A DNA stretch of 64,000 nt from an uncultured Desulfatiglans sp. (GTDB lineage: Bacteria; Desulfobacterota; DSM-4660; Desulfatiglandales; Desulfatiglandaceae): the NCBI GenBank assembly GCA_900498135.1, contig LR026961.1:3835101-3899100 (forward strand), written 5' to 3'. The notes beneath the pieces were generated by a model. It was not told the DNA's origin and made no database searches. It saw only the letters and a program-made list of their open reading frames with translations. Positions 8,378 through 38,642 of this stretch are shown here, piece after piece. Position numbers and translations under genes: made by a program. Position 1 is the first letter of the stretch. Each line of letters begins with the position of its first letter.

Positions 8378-9994
8378 CTAGAGGGGTCCCGGGCAGAATG
8401 GATCACGCTCCCGAAAGATGTCGATCCCGGAACTGTAAGCGACCGCCAGGCACCCCCCGCACACGGGACGTATCGCGCAGGACGCGCAGGCCTCGGAGCC
8501 TGCACGGTATAGGCCGGCCGCCTTGCTGTCATAGATTTCGAGGATGCTTGACGTCAGGACATTCCCTATCGGGGAGGGAAATTTGCGGCACGCGTGGACC
8601 TCTCCATCCGGAAGGACCGTCATGAAGTTGAATGCCGCTCCGCAACCATAGCCGGCACACCCACCGAAAATCCCGCTTCCTCTTTTGTACAGCAGACGGT
8701 TCAGAAGGTTGTCCTTCAAGCCGATGACAGGGTTTCTCGTCGCCGCCTCGAGATAGGCCTCACAAAACCTTCGGTAGGCCTCCTGCGAAGGCAGCCGCAA
8801 GTGCACCCCTTCCCCCACGAGTGAAAGCCGGTTGAAGGTGAACAGGTCGGTCCGCCTCTGCAGGAGATCCGCCAACGGCAGCACTTGATCGATGTTCGCG
8901 TCGGTAAGGGTGAGCATGACCATCGAGTAGATGCGGAACTCCCGCAGGAGATCCAGGAAGGAGAGGGTGCGGTCGAAATGACCCGCCTGCCGGACCGCAT
9001 CATTGTGCTCCCTCAAGCCCTCGAGGCTCACCTGGTAGTAGACGGGCATTTCGATTTCGACAATCGCCTCGATGTCTTCGCGCGAAGCCGGGTTCCCGAG
9101 GACGGCCAGGGCGAAGCCCAGATCGGACGCCCTCCGGTAGAGTTCGAGGAAGCGAGGGTGGAGGAGGGGGTTTCCGCCCGTAAAGGAGATCTGACCACGG
9201 ACGTGCTTTGCTTCGCAGAAGGCGTAGAATCCCTCCAGGACGCTGAGCGCCGTTTCATAAGGGAGGGAGGTTCTTGCCGAGCGGTCGTAACAGTGCTTGC
9301 AATGGAGGTCGCAGGCCTGGGTAATGTGCCACTGAAGCGTGAACACGTCGGCCCTCAGGAAACGCTCTTCAAACCCCTCGGGAATCGAAAACAGCGTTTC
9401 GCTCCGCCTGATCGCGGAAGGCGGGGCGATCAGCAGCCCGGTCCCAACCGCTCGGTCGACCGCCTGATCCAGGGCCGCCGGCGGGATGCCGGCCTCTTCC
9501 GCCGCCTGTTTGCGGGGGATTTCATCGGCGAGCAATTTCAAAGCGAGGAGATCGTCATTGCCCGCTGCTCGGGAAATGACATTGCCGCTTTCGGGGTGGC
9601 GATAGGCAAGCACGAACTCCCGCCCCTTTTGCGGTTCGGGGGCTCCATCAGGATCGTTCATGAGGGATGGGAGATGCCTCCAGCCGAGATCGAGGACACT
9701 CAACGTGGGATTGACGGCGATCCGCTCGAATGAGCCGCGCGCCGGAAGCTGAATCGAAGCCGCTGCTTCGATTGCTCCTTCGAGCCGCGCAAGGTCCCCG
9801 ATAAAGGGGCTTTCTTCGAACGTATCCCGCAGGGTTCGGTAAAAACTTTCCGAGCCGGGCGGACTCTGGCAGGATCCCTCGAATTGACGCCAGCGGGACT
9901 CGCCGACCAATCGCCGGCAATAAGGATACTCTGTCCGAAAGGGATGTTCCGCTTCGCTGTTCATCCTGGTTTCACCGGGTTCATCCGATATCAT
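8378..9994 (-). CDS. sbtM: Radical SAM/SPASM peptide maturase, SbtM-like
   Basis: A 538-residue cytoplasmic enzyme. Residues 1-215 form an N-terminal region with a winged-helix-like segment. The radical SAM core follows, with C228, C232 and C235 in CDLHCKHC binding the SAM [4Fe-4S] cluster. The C-terminal SPASM-type region (about 430-520) holds further Cys residues (GGCAGYGCG, ACRKF, CASCAIRPVCGGC) for auxiliary clusters. This layout is typical of RiPP maturases. It lies downstream of, and on the same strand as, the selenopeptide gene at 10321-10626, which should be its substrate. I recognise the pair as the selenobiotic, thio(seleno)oxazole-modifying SbtM/SbtA type from family memory. No clear ribosome-binding site precedes 9994; an internal ATG at 9964 is an alternative start. 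Confidence 0.82.
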   Translation of the reverse strand: MISDEPGETRMNSEAEHPFRTEYPYCRRLVGESRWRQFEGSCQSPPGSESFYRTLRDTFEESPFIGDLARLEGAIEAAASIQLPARGSFERIAVNPTLSVLDLGWRHLPSLMNDPDGAPEPQKGREFVLAYRHPESGNVISRAAGNDDLLALKLLADEIPRKQAAEEAGIPPAALDQAVDRAVGTGLLIAPPSAIRRSETLFSIPEGFEERFLRADVFTLQWHITQACDLHCKHCYDRSARTSLPYETALSVLEGFYAFCEAKHVRGQISFTGGNPLLHPRFLELYRRASDLGFALAVLGNPASREDIEAIVEIEMPVYYQVSLEGLREHNDAVRQAGHFDRTLSFLDLLREFRIYSMVMLTLTDANIDQVLPLADLLQRRTDLFTFNRLSLVGEGVHLRLPSQEAYRRFCEAYLEAATRNPVIGLKDNLLNRLLYKRGSGIFGGCAGYGCGAAFNFMTVLPDGEVHACRKFPSPIGNVLTSSILEIYDSKAAGLYRAGSEACASCAIRPVCGGCLAVAYSSGIDIFRERDPFCPGPL

Positions 9995-10320
9995 CGAAGG
10001 GCGGCCTCGAGGCCGCTTTGCGGCCCGGCTTCGTCAGCCTGACGCCAGTTGGCGCGTAGCAATGGCGGCGGAATTTCCCGCCAGCCTCCCCCTGACGGAA
10101 GGAGGTCGAAAACTCGATGGCTATCGAGTCAGGCCTTGTCTGAGGCCGCCGTTTCAACCGTTCCGCTTAAAAAAAACACCGAACGCCCGTCTCAGGCAGA
10201 AGCACTCCGGAAACATCCCGGGCCTTTCACCGAACCTCGGCGTCGCGTGTTTCATGTGCGTGGGACGGGGGGAGGATCACAAAAAACCTTACAAACAAAA
10301 GCCTCGCAGTGCGGACCGCA
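9995..10320. other. Palindrome-rich spacer between selenopeptide and maturase genes
   Basis: 326 nt with no convincing gene on either strand. It contains several compact inverted repeats: GGCCGC/GCGGCC at 10011-10025, CGTCA/TGACG at 10032-10044, and the third SECIS-like hairpin at its right edge. A hairpin-laden spacer could lower expression of the enzyme gene relative to the precursor, as is common in RiPP operons, but this is inference. Confidence 0.45.
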
Positions 10321-10323
10321 CTA
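10307..10323 (-). promoter_or_regulatory. SECIS-like hairpin for Sec96
   Basis: The stem AGTGCG/CGCACT, extendable by a U-G wobble pair, has loop GUC and begins 15 nt after the third UGA. The apical context GGUC resembles the SelB-recognition loop of known bacterial SECIS elements. The UAG stop codon lies inside the stem. Confidence 0.7.
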
Positions 10324-10626
10324 CTTCTTGCTGCCGCCTCAGCCGCTTTGGCCGGGCTGCTTCTGTGGTTGCGTCGTTTCTCCGGCAGGTTGGGTTGCAT
10401 TTTGATCGGATTCACCGGGTTGGGCTTGCGTGGCGCTTCCAGCGCCGCTTTGCTGTCCACTTCACCCCGAGGAACCGGCCGCTTTTCCAGGTGGTTGGGT
10501 GCTGCCTGCACCGCTTTTGGCGCCCCCTCAGCCGCTCGAGGATCCGGCAAAGACCAGCCCCGCGCCGGATATGAGGGTCGCCACGCAGACGCCGGAAAGC
10601 ACCTTCTTGATTTCTTTCAGTTCCAT
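10321..10626 (-). CDS. sbtA: Selenocysteine-containing RiPP precursor, SbtA-like (three in-frame UGA codons)
   Basis: Reading UGA as selenocysteine (U) gives one continuous 101-residue peptide ending at UAG. It starts at ATG 10626 with GAGAGG at 10638-10633, a 6-nt spacer. Residues 1-28 form a basic start MELKEIKK, a hydrophobic run and an Ala-Gly end, like an export leader. The rest is a low-complexity Gly/Ser/Gln/Pro core with no aromatic residue. Sec falls at positions 33 (UGA 10530-10528), 55 (10464-10462) and 96 (10341-10339), in motifs SSGUGG, SSGUSG and QSGUGG; the last sits five residues before the stop (GGSKK). Each UGA is followed after 15 nt by a SECIS-like hairpin. The maturase gene lies downstream and tRNA-Sec at 38.5 kb. 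Recognised as an SbtA-type precursor; the final product and its function are unknown. Confidence 0.88.
10432..10446 (-). promoter_or_regulatory. SECIS-like hairpin for Sec55
   Basis: The stem GGCGCT/AGCGCC with loop GGA begins 15 nt after the second in-frame UGA. It has the same offset and a G-rich loop like the other two, although the sequence differs. Confidence 0.68.
10498..10512 (-). promoter_or_regulatory. SECIS-like hairpin for Sec33
   Basis: The stem GGTGC/GCACC with loop AGGCA begins exactly 15 nt after the first in-frame UGA. The loop contains GG, as expected for SelB-binding bacterial SECIS elements, which sit inside the coding region just downstream of UGA. Confidence 0.65.
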
Positions 10627-10704
10627 GGGCTACCTCTCGAAAGAACAGGGTGTTTATTCATTGGCCATGATTAGGATAATCCGATACCTCCCCCCGTTGC
10701 TTCC

Positions 10705-10733
10705 ATGATACACCGATAACTCCACGCATGCAA
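10705..10733 (-). promoter_or_regulatory. Candidate sigma70 promoter for the selenopeptide gene
   Basis: On the minus strand TTGCAT and TATCAT are separated by 17 nt; the -10 matches five of six consensus bases and the -35 matches three. Transcription would begin near 10698, leaving a leader of about 70 nt. It lies back-to-back with a promoter for the plus-strand YdcF-like gene. Confidence 0.35.
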
Positions 10734-36842: not shown

Positions 36843-37295
36843 ATGAGGGAATCCATCATTTATCTGGACAACGCGGCCACGACTTTTCCCAAACCGCGCG
36901 CCGTCCTGGAACAGATGCTTGAAACCTATAGCCGGATGGGGGTCTCGCCCGGAAGGGGAAGTTACGACCTGGCTGTGGAGGCGGAAGCGCTGGTCCAGGA
37001 GACGAGGCGGAAGGTGGCCGCATTGTTCAGCGCCCCGGATCCGGACCACGTCATTTTCGCCCAAAACGCTACGGATGCCTTGAACCTCGCCCTGCAAGGG
37101 ATCGTGAGGCCGGGCGATCATGTGCTGTCCACCCGCTTGGAACATAACTCCGTCCTGAGGCCCCTCTACCACCTTCGTCAACGGGGATGGATCGAATACG
37201 ATCTAGTCCCCTTCGATGCGGAAGGGTTCGTGGACCCGGACGCCATTGCGTTGGGCATCAAGTCCAACACCCGTTTTGAACGGTCGTTTCGATAA
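36843..37295 (+). pseudogene. Cysteine desulfurase, truncated to its N-terminal 140 residues
   Basis: Begins as a normal class V aminotransferase/cysteine desulfurase: IYLDNAATTFPKPRAVLEQM, PGRGSYDLAVEAE, VIFAQNATDALNLALQGIV, STRLEHNSVLRPL. Similarity stops near residue 142 (KSNTR, nt 37268), where a PLP-contact region should follow. The frame then ends after a few unrelated codons. The PLP lysine and catalytic Cys are missing, so the product cannot be active. A full protein would have about 380 residues. The break point marks a deletion or insertion, and the DNA to the right holds a broken regulator and a small-ORF/GNAT pair. It overlaps no other gene and lies 5 nt after the DsrC/TusE-like gene. 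Confidence 0.85.
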
Positions 37296-38544: not shown

Positions 38545-38642
38545 TGGCGGAAGTGCATGGGAATCGAACCCACCTACCAGGGTTTTAGCCCGGTACACCG
38601 GATTTGAAGTCCGGGAGCCCCACCAGTGAGCTTTCCACTTCC
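38545..38642 (-). tRNA. selC: tRNA-Sec (anticodon UCA)
   Basis: A 98-nt cloverleaf including encoded CCA. The acceptor stem GGAAGTG/CACTTCC, the anticodon arm CCGGACTTCAAATCCGG with anticodon TCA, a long variable arm (ACCGGG/CCCTGGT around a CTAAAA loop) and the T arm TGGGTTCGATTCCCA are all visible. Unusual length, long extra arm and UCA anticodon identify it as selenocysteine tRNA, which decodes UGA with SelB and a SECIS. It supports reading the three UGA codons of the peptide gene at 10321-10626. The selA/selB/selD genes are not in the window. Confidence 0.95.

Follow-up and report, generated by a model that had tools for sequence, protein, structure and literature searches.

An SbtA-type precursor gene with three predicted selenocysteine codons and candidate SECIS hairpins in an uncultured Desulfatiglans sp.

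The window (the whole stretch of 64,000 nucleotides of contig LR026961.1 that was analysed) encodes on its minus strand a short SbtA-type peptide precursor adjoining a gene for the maturase SbtM. Very probably the three in-frame UGA codons of sbtA are read as selenocysteine (Sec), likely with one RNA hairpin each, after which SbtM would likely convert these residues to selenooxazoles. Earlier publications already describe the SbtA/SbtM system with its chemistry and the existence of SECIS elements in it, so that sbtA adds a member to an established family. From the present analysis come a fixed hairpin register over tandem units, a probable shadow of the hairpin in the peptide and an export-like leader. 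A literature search found no study of tandem SECIS elements or export signals in SbtA; such work may be in print, and we claim no novelty in print for these points.

The sbtA gene, its family and its maturase

The features of the locus, in window coordinates, are as follows.

10321..10626, minus strand: sbtA, precursor of 101 residues (read-through frame, TIGR04081 match, same-genus conservation)
10549..10626, minus strand: SbtA leader, residues 1-26 (MELKEIKKVLSGVCVATLISGAGLVF), matching TIGR04081 positions 1-26; hydrophobic, export-signal-like
10528..10530, minus strand: UGA codon 33, predicted Sec (TGA read as U)
10462..10464, minus strand: UGA codon 55, predicted Sec (TGA read as U)
10339..10341, minus strand: UGA codon 96, predicted Sec (TGA read as U)
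10633..10638, minus strand: ribosome-binding-like GAGAGG, from sequence, 6 nt upstream of the sbtA ATG
8378..9994, minus strand: sbtM, radical SAM/SPASM maturase of 538 residues with stop TAG (TIGR04082 715.6 bits, cut-off 350)

The initial annotation had described a frame that runs from ATG to UAG through three UGAs, and this frame was reproduced, with 101 residues and U33, U55 and U96. Past the leader it continues with AGSSSGUGGAKSGAGST, later with SGUSGQQSGAGSA, and ends with GQSGUGGSKK before TAG. The ribosome-binding site that had been proposed is found as GAGAGG, and the repeated motif of SG-U-G type stands around each UGA (SGUGG at U33, SGUSG at U55 and SGUGG at U96). We scanned the whole window for read-through frames 60 or more codons long, running from the first ATG to TAA or TAG or to the window end. 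Among the 141 frames with at least three UGAs, sbtA alone has the pattern S[GSA]U[GSTA]G at two or more UGAs, and all three of its UGAs fit, in line with the expectation that chance would hardly repeat such a motif.

The gene belongs to the SbtA family. When the translation was searched against SbtA models, residues 1-26 scored 42.4 bits against the 27-position NCBIfam model TIGR04081 (cut-off 30.5), which agrees with the leader-like N-terminus noted before; together with the adjoining sbtM and the Sec machinery genes of the genome, this match upholds the recognition of an SbtA-type precursor. The frame and all three UGAs are kept in the same-genus genome G001; the codons that differ comprise 6 synonymous and 4 non-synonymous cases, and second codon positions never differ. 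Identity to G001 is 295/306 in the coding sequence, 177/202 alignment columns upstream and 212/256 further downstream, while the 60 nt directly past the stop, which contain most of the third hairpin, are identical at 58/60 positions.

The standard ORFs at the locus (10227-10550 on the minus strand; 10309-10674, 10062-10574 and 10430-10708 on the plus strand) overlap sbtA and are unrelated to it, as had been foreseen. Read-through SbtA (C for U) was compared with about 5.8 billion predicted proteins by a search that depends on exact word matches; of the 36 candidates it scored, none reached E <= 0.001. Ordinary gene calling therefore appears to miss sbtA, and SbtA-type genes are easily missed in this way. 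A chance or degenerate frame, in which the UGAs are true stops and there is no gene, would likewise lack a covering standard ORF and a predicted-protein match in a large database. We regard such a frame as extremely improbable in view of the curated family match, the adjoining SbtM and the conservation, the singular position of sbtA in the scan of the window, and the 179 UGAs in SbtA-like frames of relatives, which mostly carry the same motif.

SbtM matches the Pfam Radical_SAM and SPASM domains and has CxxxCxxC at C228-C235; Cys residues 446, 451, 469, 503, 506, 512, 515 and 534 are invariant among eight SbtM proteins. The primary study of the SbtA/SbtM thio(seleno)oxazole RiPP system is reportedly that of Lewis et al. 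2021, Biochemistry 60:3347. According to PMC11002830, SbtM removes four hydrogens in vitro from substrate peptides that contain Cys or Sec, and NMR identified the SbtM product of the Cys substrate as a thiooxazole. The earlier statement that the product is unknown stands for this member but not for the family, whose chemistry is in print. By analogy with the family, SbtM would likely convert each Sec of this SbtA to a selenooxazole, after which the leader would be removed from the modified peptide.

Our locus shares with the SbtA/SbtM system (TIGR04081/TIGR04082) the leader family, the adjoining SbtM, the SGU(G/S)G motif and UGAs with a downstream SECIS-like hairpin, whereas the relation of hairpin to peptide and the export-like leader are drawn here from sequence. 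One table row of the review PMC13188914 reads 'Selenobacteriocin, TIGR04081, SGUG, 2', where 2 is apparently the number of Sec per protein; compared with that example this SbtA has three UGAs, which is also the commonest number among the 75 related genes described below. Against the ACGX model (TIGR04340) SbtM scores 158.5 bits, well under the cut-off of 400. As in ACGX and other Cys-only radical SAM/SPASM systems, there are Cys-only relatives (L099 and L107), which share the hydrophobic leader, but the core of this SbtA uses Sec and not Cys. Three SPASM radical SAM peptide maturases of solved structure (SkfB 6efn, 5wgg and 5v1q) can be aligned to the SbtM profile across the radical SAM core and past it (E 1.8e-13 for 6efn), yet they differ from SbtM in their chemistry, forming thioether or carbon-carbon links, and have low sequence similarity to it.

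Selenocysteine machinery and the hairpins of this gene

The Sec machinery genes are present in the host genome. SelB (386.8 bits), SelA (624.9 bits) and SelD (369.4 bits) each score above cut-off and are encoded outside the window, and the tRNA gene lies within it:

38545..38642, minus strand: tRNA-Sec, anticodon TCA (ARAGORN; Rfam RF01852 71.7 bits, gathering 47)

We propose that SelA, SelB, SelD and tRNA-Sec would decode the three sbtA UGAs as Sec, each UGA likely being served by a separate hairpin some 20-30 nt further on. The distribution of the tRNA adds little: SbtM scores above cut-off in 8 of 148 genomes, the host genome included, and tRNA-Sec passes its cut-off in 131 of the 148, so that their co-occurrence says little. 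The tRNA is absent over cut-off from three genomes with Cys-only SbtA, but as it is also absent from one of three Sec-type genomes, this contrast is weak. About 1.2 kb from the tRNA-Sec gene, a short ORF on the plus strand (36843-37295) has the look of a cut-short desulfurase. It matches only positions 1-139 of 376 of cysteine desulfurase TIGR01977 and positions 1-138 of 378 of selenocysteine lyase SclA, in both cases below cut-off.

The bacterial SECIS model of PMC13188914 (legend of Fig. 2) has a loop of 3-9 nt with a G as first or second loop nucleotide, lies 16-37 nt from the UGA and has an upper stem of 4-16 bp and an energy of at most -7.5 kcal/mol. We applied the model with a contiguous stem, took the energy of this contiguous upper stem alone, and numbered the first base of the UGA as +1. 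The candidates in sbtA are:

10498..10512, minus strand: candidate SECIS 1, +19..+33 after UGA 33, GGUGC-AGGCA-GCACC, -6.8 kcal/mol
10432..10446, minus strand: candidate SECIS 2, +19..+33 after UGA 55, GGCGCU-GGA-AGCGCC, -8.7 kcal/mol, in-register probability 1.00
10306..10324, minus strand: candidate SECIS 3, +18..+36 after UGA 96, -10.3 kcal/mol, probability 0.99

Candidate SECIS 3 has an 8-pair stem and the loop GUC and spans the TAG stop into the 3' UTR. At all three UGAs the hairpin lies within the limits for loop size, loop G, distance and upper-stem length, and at UGA 55 and UGA 96 also within the energy limit of -7.5 kcal/mol, which the hairpin at UGA 33 misses. Candidate SECIS 1 is the weakest of the three, with an in-register probability of 0.20 because a GC-rich alternative fold competes with it. 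Its counterpart in G001 is identical and fails the energy limit there too.

The weak and conserved first hairpin with its competing fold could also imply that UGA 33 works as a selenium-dependent stop, so that mostly a leader fragment of 32 residues is made and the long form only when selenium is plentiful. This seems unlikely to us, as the frame, with the 6 synonymous and 4 non-synonymous changes given above, is conserved within the genus and the hairpins after UGA 55 and UGA 96 are strong; in any case it differs in degree and not in kind from the reading of all three UGAs as Sec. The decoding of UGA 55 and UGA 96 as Sec is strongly predicted and that of UGA 33 more weakly.

Folded singly, the 62-nt stretches after the three UGAs do not stand out from dinucleotide shuffles (z 0.52, -0.02 and -1.00), and Rfam gave no SECIS family for the window at the gathering threshold or for 10200-10700 at E up to 5. 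Since no hairpin of this gene is clearly more stable than its shuffles, the case for SECIS elements rests on position and on the family, and as such single-sequence scores are uninformative a family-wide analysis was used.

Other Sec genes of the host genome provide an example of the same arrangement. SelD (L035, minus strand) has one in-frame UGA, in SGSGUASK, with a hairpin whose loop starts at +24 (-9.9 kcal/mol), near the SbtA register, and a formate-dehydrogenase-like UGA has one with loop start +27 (-10.1 kcal/mol). The Sec site was located in two of the four own-genome UGA loci (SelD at L035 and the formate-dehydrogenase-type L117, L118 and L121); it was sought in L117 and L118 and none was found. 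This listing of hairpins illustrates the arrangement but is no controlled test, since it included UGAs of arbitrary frames, some of which have strong hairpins. The candidates in SbtA resemble the bacterial SECIS elements of SelD and formate dehydrogenase in the loop G at one of the first two positions and in their place 16-37 nt after the UGA, but a single short SbtA gene can hold as many as four of them in a row. As a gene in which three UGA-SECIS units follow closely on one another, sbtA is a compact natural test of SelB on successive Sec codons.

Hairpins and peptide repeats in the SbtA family

For the family we collected 88 SbtM loci, namely those of the eight genomes above and the best 80 of 274 relative-encoding stretches from named genomes. 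Judged by title, the added loci come mostly from Deltaproteobacteria/Desulfobacterota and Nitrospirota, and at least one contig is present twice (L002, L041). SbtA-like frames at E < 1e-7 were found in 70 of the 88 loci and two further ones by regex (L042, L063); in the other 16, some of which lie on contigs ending near SbtM, the profile and regex searches found none. Merging identical proteins left 75 distinct SbtA-like genes in 68 loci.

During cleaning, frames were trimmed to the leader in L050 and L085 (the latter also cut to 60 residues), and the L082 and L113 precursors were cut ahead of a UGA taken as stop. Any UGA up to 12 codons past the last motif UGA was treated as a stop, by which rule 14 genes end in TGA. 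The 75 genes then hold 179 Sec-type UGAs, one of which is the UGA at leader position 29 of L083; 37 genes have three, 26 two, four have one, three have four and five have none, so that 70 carry some. The count of five may well be off, as one of these genes (L086) has a UGA in TPUGG that the motif rule made a stop but that may be Sec. The Sec-type UGAs mostly sit in an SGU(G/S)G-like motif. UGA or Cys at positions 33, 55 and 96, as the initial annotation expected of homologs, is thus confirmed for G001, but outside the genus the number (0-4) and the spacing vary.

Composition also varies. Two different SbtA genes lie near one SbtM in seven loci (L047, L054, L057, L058, L062, L104 and L009), and the second SbtA-like gene of L009 has no UGA. 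Cys-only cores occur in L049, L099 and L107 and in the regex-found L063. The L008 precursor is mixed: it combines numerous Cys, in GCGSSCG-type stretches, with a single Sec-type UGA at the C-terminus, and may bridge the Cys-type and the Sec-type peptides.

The folding of the 179 regions after Sec-type UGAs shows one sharply placed hairpin. The density of loop centres peaks at +26 with 0.88, the other positions from 8 to 57 all being at most 0.24, and the in-register pair probability exceeds 0.5 in 72% of the UGAs. We called a UGA internal if at least 14 residues follow U, which gave 113 internal and 66 C-terminal sites. The internal sites have a mean in-register probability of 0.67. When their codons were exchanged for synonyms sampled from the longest frame of each locus, the mean over 100 recoded sets fell to 0.165 (sd 0.024, maximum 0.235); nucleotide shuffles of all 179 regions gave 0.147. 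Identity filters of 70% and 60% lower the internal mean to 0.64 (n=64) and 0.57 (n=37), for comparison with a recoding control made on the unfiltered set. As recoding leaves the peptide unchanged, it is the choice of codons that makes the hairpin, and the SbtA-family hairpin rests largely on this choice.

Covariation points in the same direction. Among the 113 internal sites the column pair +21/+31 is T-A in 47, C-G in 26 and A-T in 9, the pair +23/+29 is C-G in 76 and G-C in 18, and the pair +18/+34 is C-G in 36, G-C in 23 and T-A in 9. In the 70% identity set, +23/+29 is paired in 50 of 64 sites (permutation mean 30.9, maximum 41) and +18/+34 in 40 of 64 (mean 25.9, maximum 36), while +19/+33 is weaker (50/64 against a permutation maximum of 50). 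Two of the slid column pairs of the 113 internal sites also beat their permutations, namely +24/+27 with 76 (maximum 58) and +20/+33 with 76 (maximum 74). For the 66 C-terminal UGAs, where the register varies, only +22/+30 (39/66) of seven fixed column pairs beat all 300 permutations.

The bacterial SECIS model fits 126 of the 179 Sec-type UGAs, compared with 25 of 334 UGA stops. These close stop-to-stop frames of the collected loci that span 200 codons or more; the frames were picked mechanically and need not be genes. Among internal sites it fits 72 of 113, against 11.2 (sd 3.0, maximum 20) after recoding. The remaining 53 of 179 fail the model with its contiguous stem. In most SbtA-like genes the last hairpin lies partly or wholly beyond the stop codon. 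An RNA hairpin at a fixed distance thus likely directs the reading of most SbtA-family UGAs as Sec. Hairpins at ten UGA-less repeats, picked by eye and without a control, are ambiguous as evidence: L104 (Glu) has one of -7.6 kcal/mol, L002 (Val) and one L045 Cys repeat have -4.9, and the remaining seven either lack a hairpin or reach no lower than -0.9. In the last repeat of the L104 SbtA, GAA (Glu) replaces UGA and the SECIS-like hairpin is retained, as after a recent loss.

The hairpin appears to be visible in the peptide. Residues U+6 to U+10 fit [GS][AT][GV][GSR][TAS] at 68 of the 113 internal sites and at one of the 66 C-terminal sites, and an alternative pattern fits 66 of the 113. C-terminal units mostly stop short of these positions, having at most four residues after U in 48 of 66 cases, yet their hairpins are at least as strong as the internal ones (mean in-register probability 0.79 versus 0.67). 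The simplest reading is that the G-A-G/V-S/G-T motif, found 6-10 residues past internal Sec positions, for the most part reflects translation of the SECIS hairpin, and tandem SECIS elements would then explain the G-A-G-S-T repeat. If so, the conserved repeat of SbtA should not be read as a recognition site of the maturase, which would change substrate design and the definition of the core.

Leader, export and possible role

A hydrophobic stretch is present in all 75 genes, with a maximum 17-residue mean hydropathy of 1.50-2.24. In 38 of the 75 it is followed by a lipobox-like Cys, as judged by a PS51257-like pattern that we take to represent the lipobox, and the residue before a Cys at positions 21-42 is Gly in 44 of 53 cases. 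Several leaders without a lipobox have ALA, AHA or AQA-like triplets at this place. The hydrophobicity together with the lipobox-like Cys or the triplets suggests that the SbtA-family leader directs export, in many members as a lipoprotein signal. By the same pattern, the leader of our SbtA has no lipobox Cys; its V25-F26-A27 ahead of G28 is a possible signal peptidase I site, on the three-residue pattern only. Should the leader indeed direct export, the periplasm or membrane would be the place to look for the peptide.

The neighbours of SbtM were clustered from frames of at least 90 codons, taken from the 88 loci, each no longer than 9.6 kb, and from a single stretch of the window; the 14 largest clusters were inspected, and smaller genes would be missed. 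SbtM recurs in 83 of these 89 stretches. The next cluster is an ORF in 17 stretches, the example of which overlaps SbtA in antisense orientation; a cluster in 14 includes a response regulator of the window, and a further one occurs in 12. As no family besides SbtM recurs in more than 17 of the 89 stretches, no dedicated exporter is apparent near SbtM within the flanks and frame sizes examined. With a leader that would double as secretion signal, the modified peptide may need no transporter of its own and take the general pathway for export; in relatives it would often be lipid-anchored.

We tentatively extend this, at somewhat less than even confidence, to a self-sufficient two-gene system for secreted and often lipid-anchored selenooxazole peptides. 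The leader would serve both as recognition region for SbtM and as secretion signal, each Sec would have one SECIS, the last in the 3' UTR, and the G-A-G-S-T repeats would be imposed by the RNA and not by the maturase or the product.

Alternatively, SbtA could be an exported selenium carrier or a redox or metal-binding peptide in which Sec stays free, with SbtM modifying some of the residues or something else. The presence of mostly two or three Sec in a small peptide rich in Gly, Ser, Lys and Gln with an export-like leader would suit such a function, but sbtM adjoins the precursor and is by far its most recurrent neighbour, and in PMC11002830 SbtM acts on a Sec-containing peptide, so that we consider free Sec a rather remote prospect beside the formation of selenooxazoles. 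The literature search found nothing on what SbtA peptides do, and one may only conjecture that a modified SbtA is an exported redox, signalling or metal-handling peptide. The L083 precursor, from the Olavius algarvensis Delta 4 endosymbiont, has its leader UGA (position 29, in LSAU) where many leaders have the lipobox Cys, possibly placing Sec at the site of lipid attachment.
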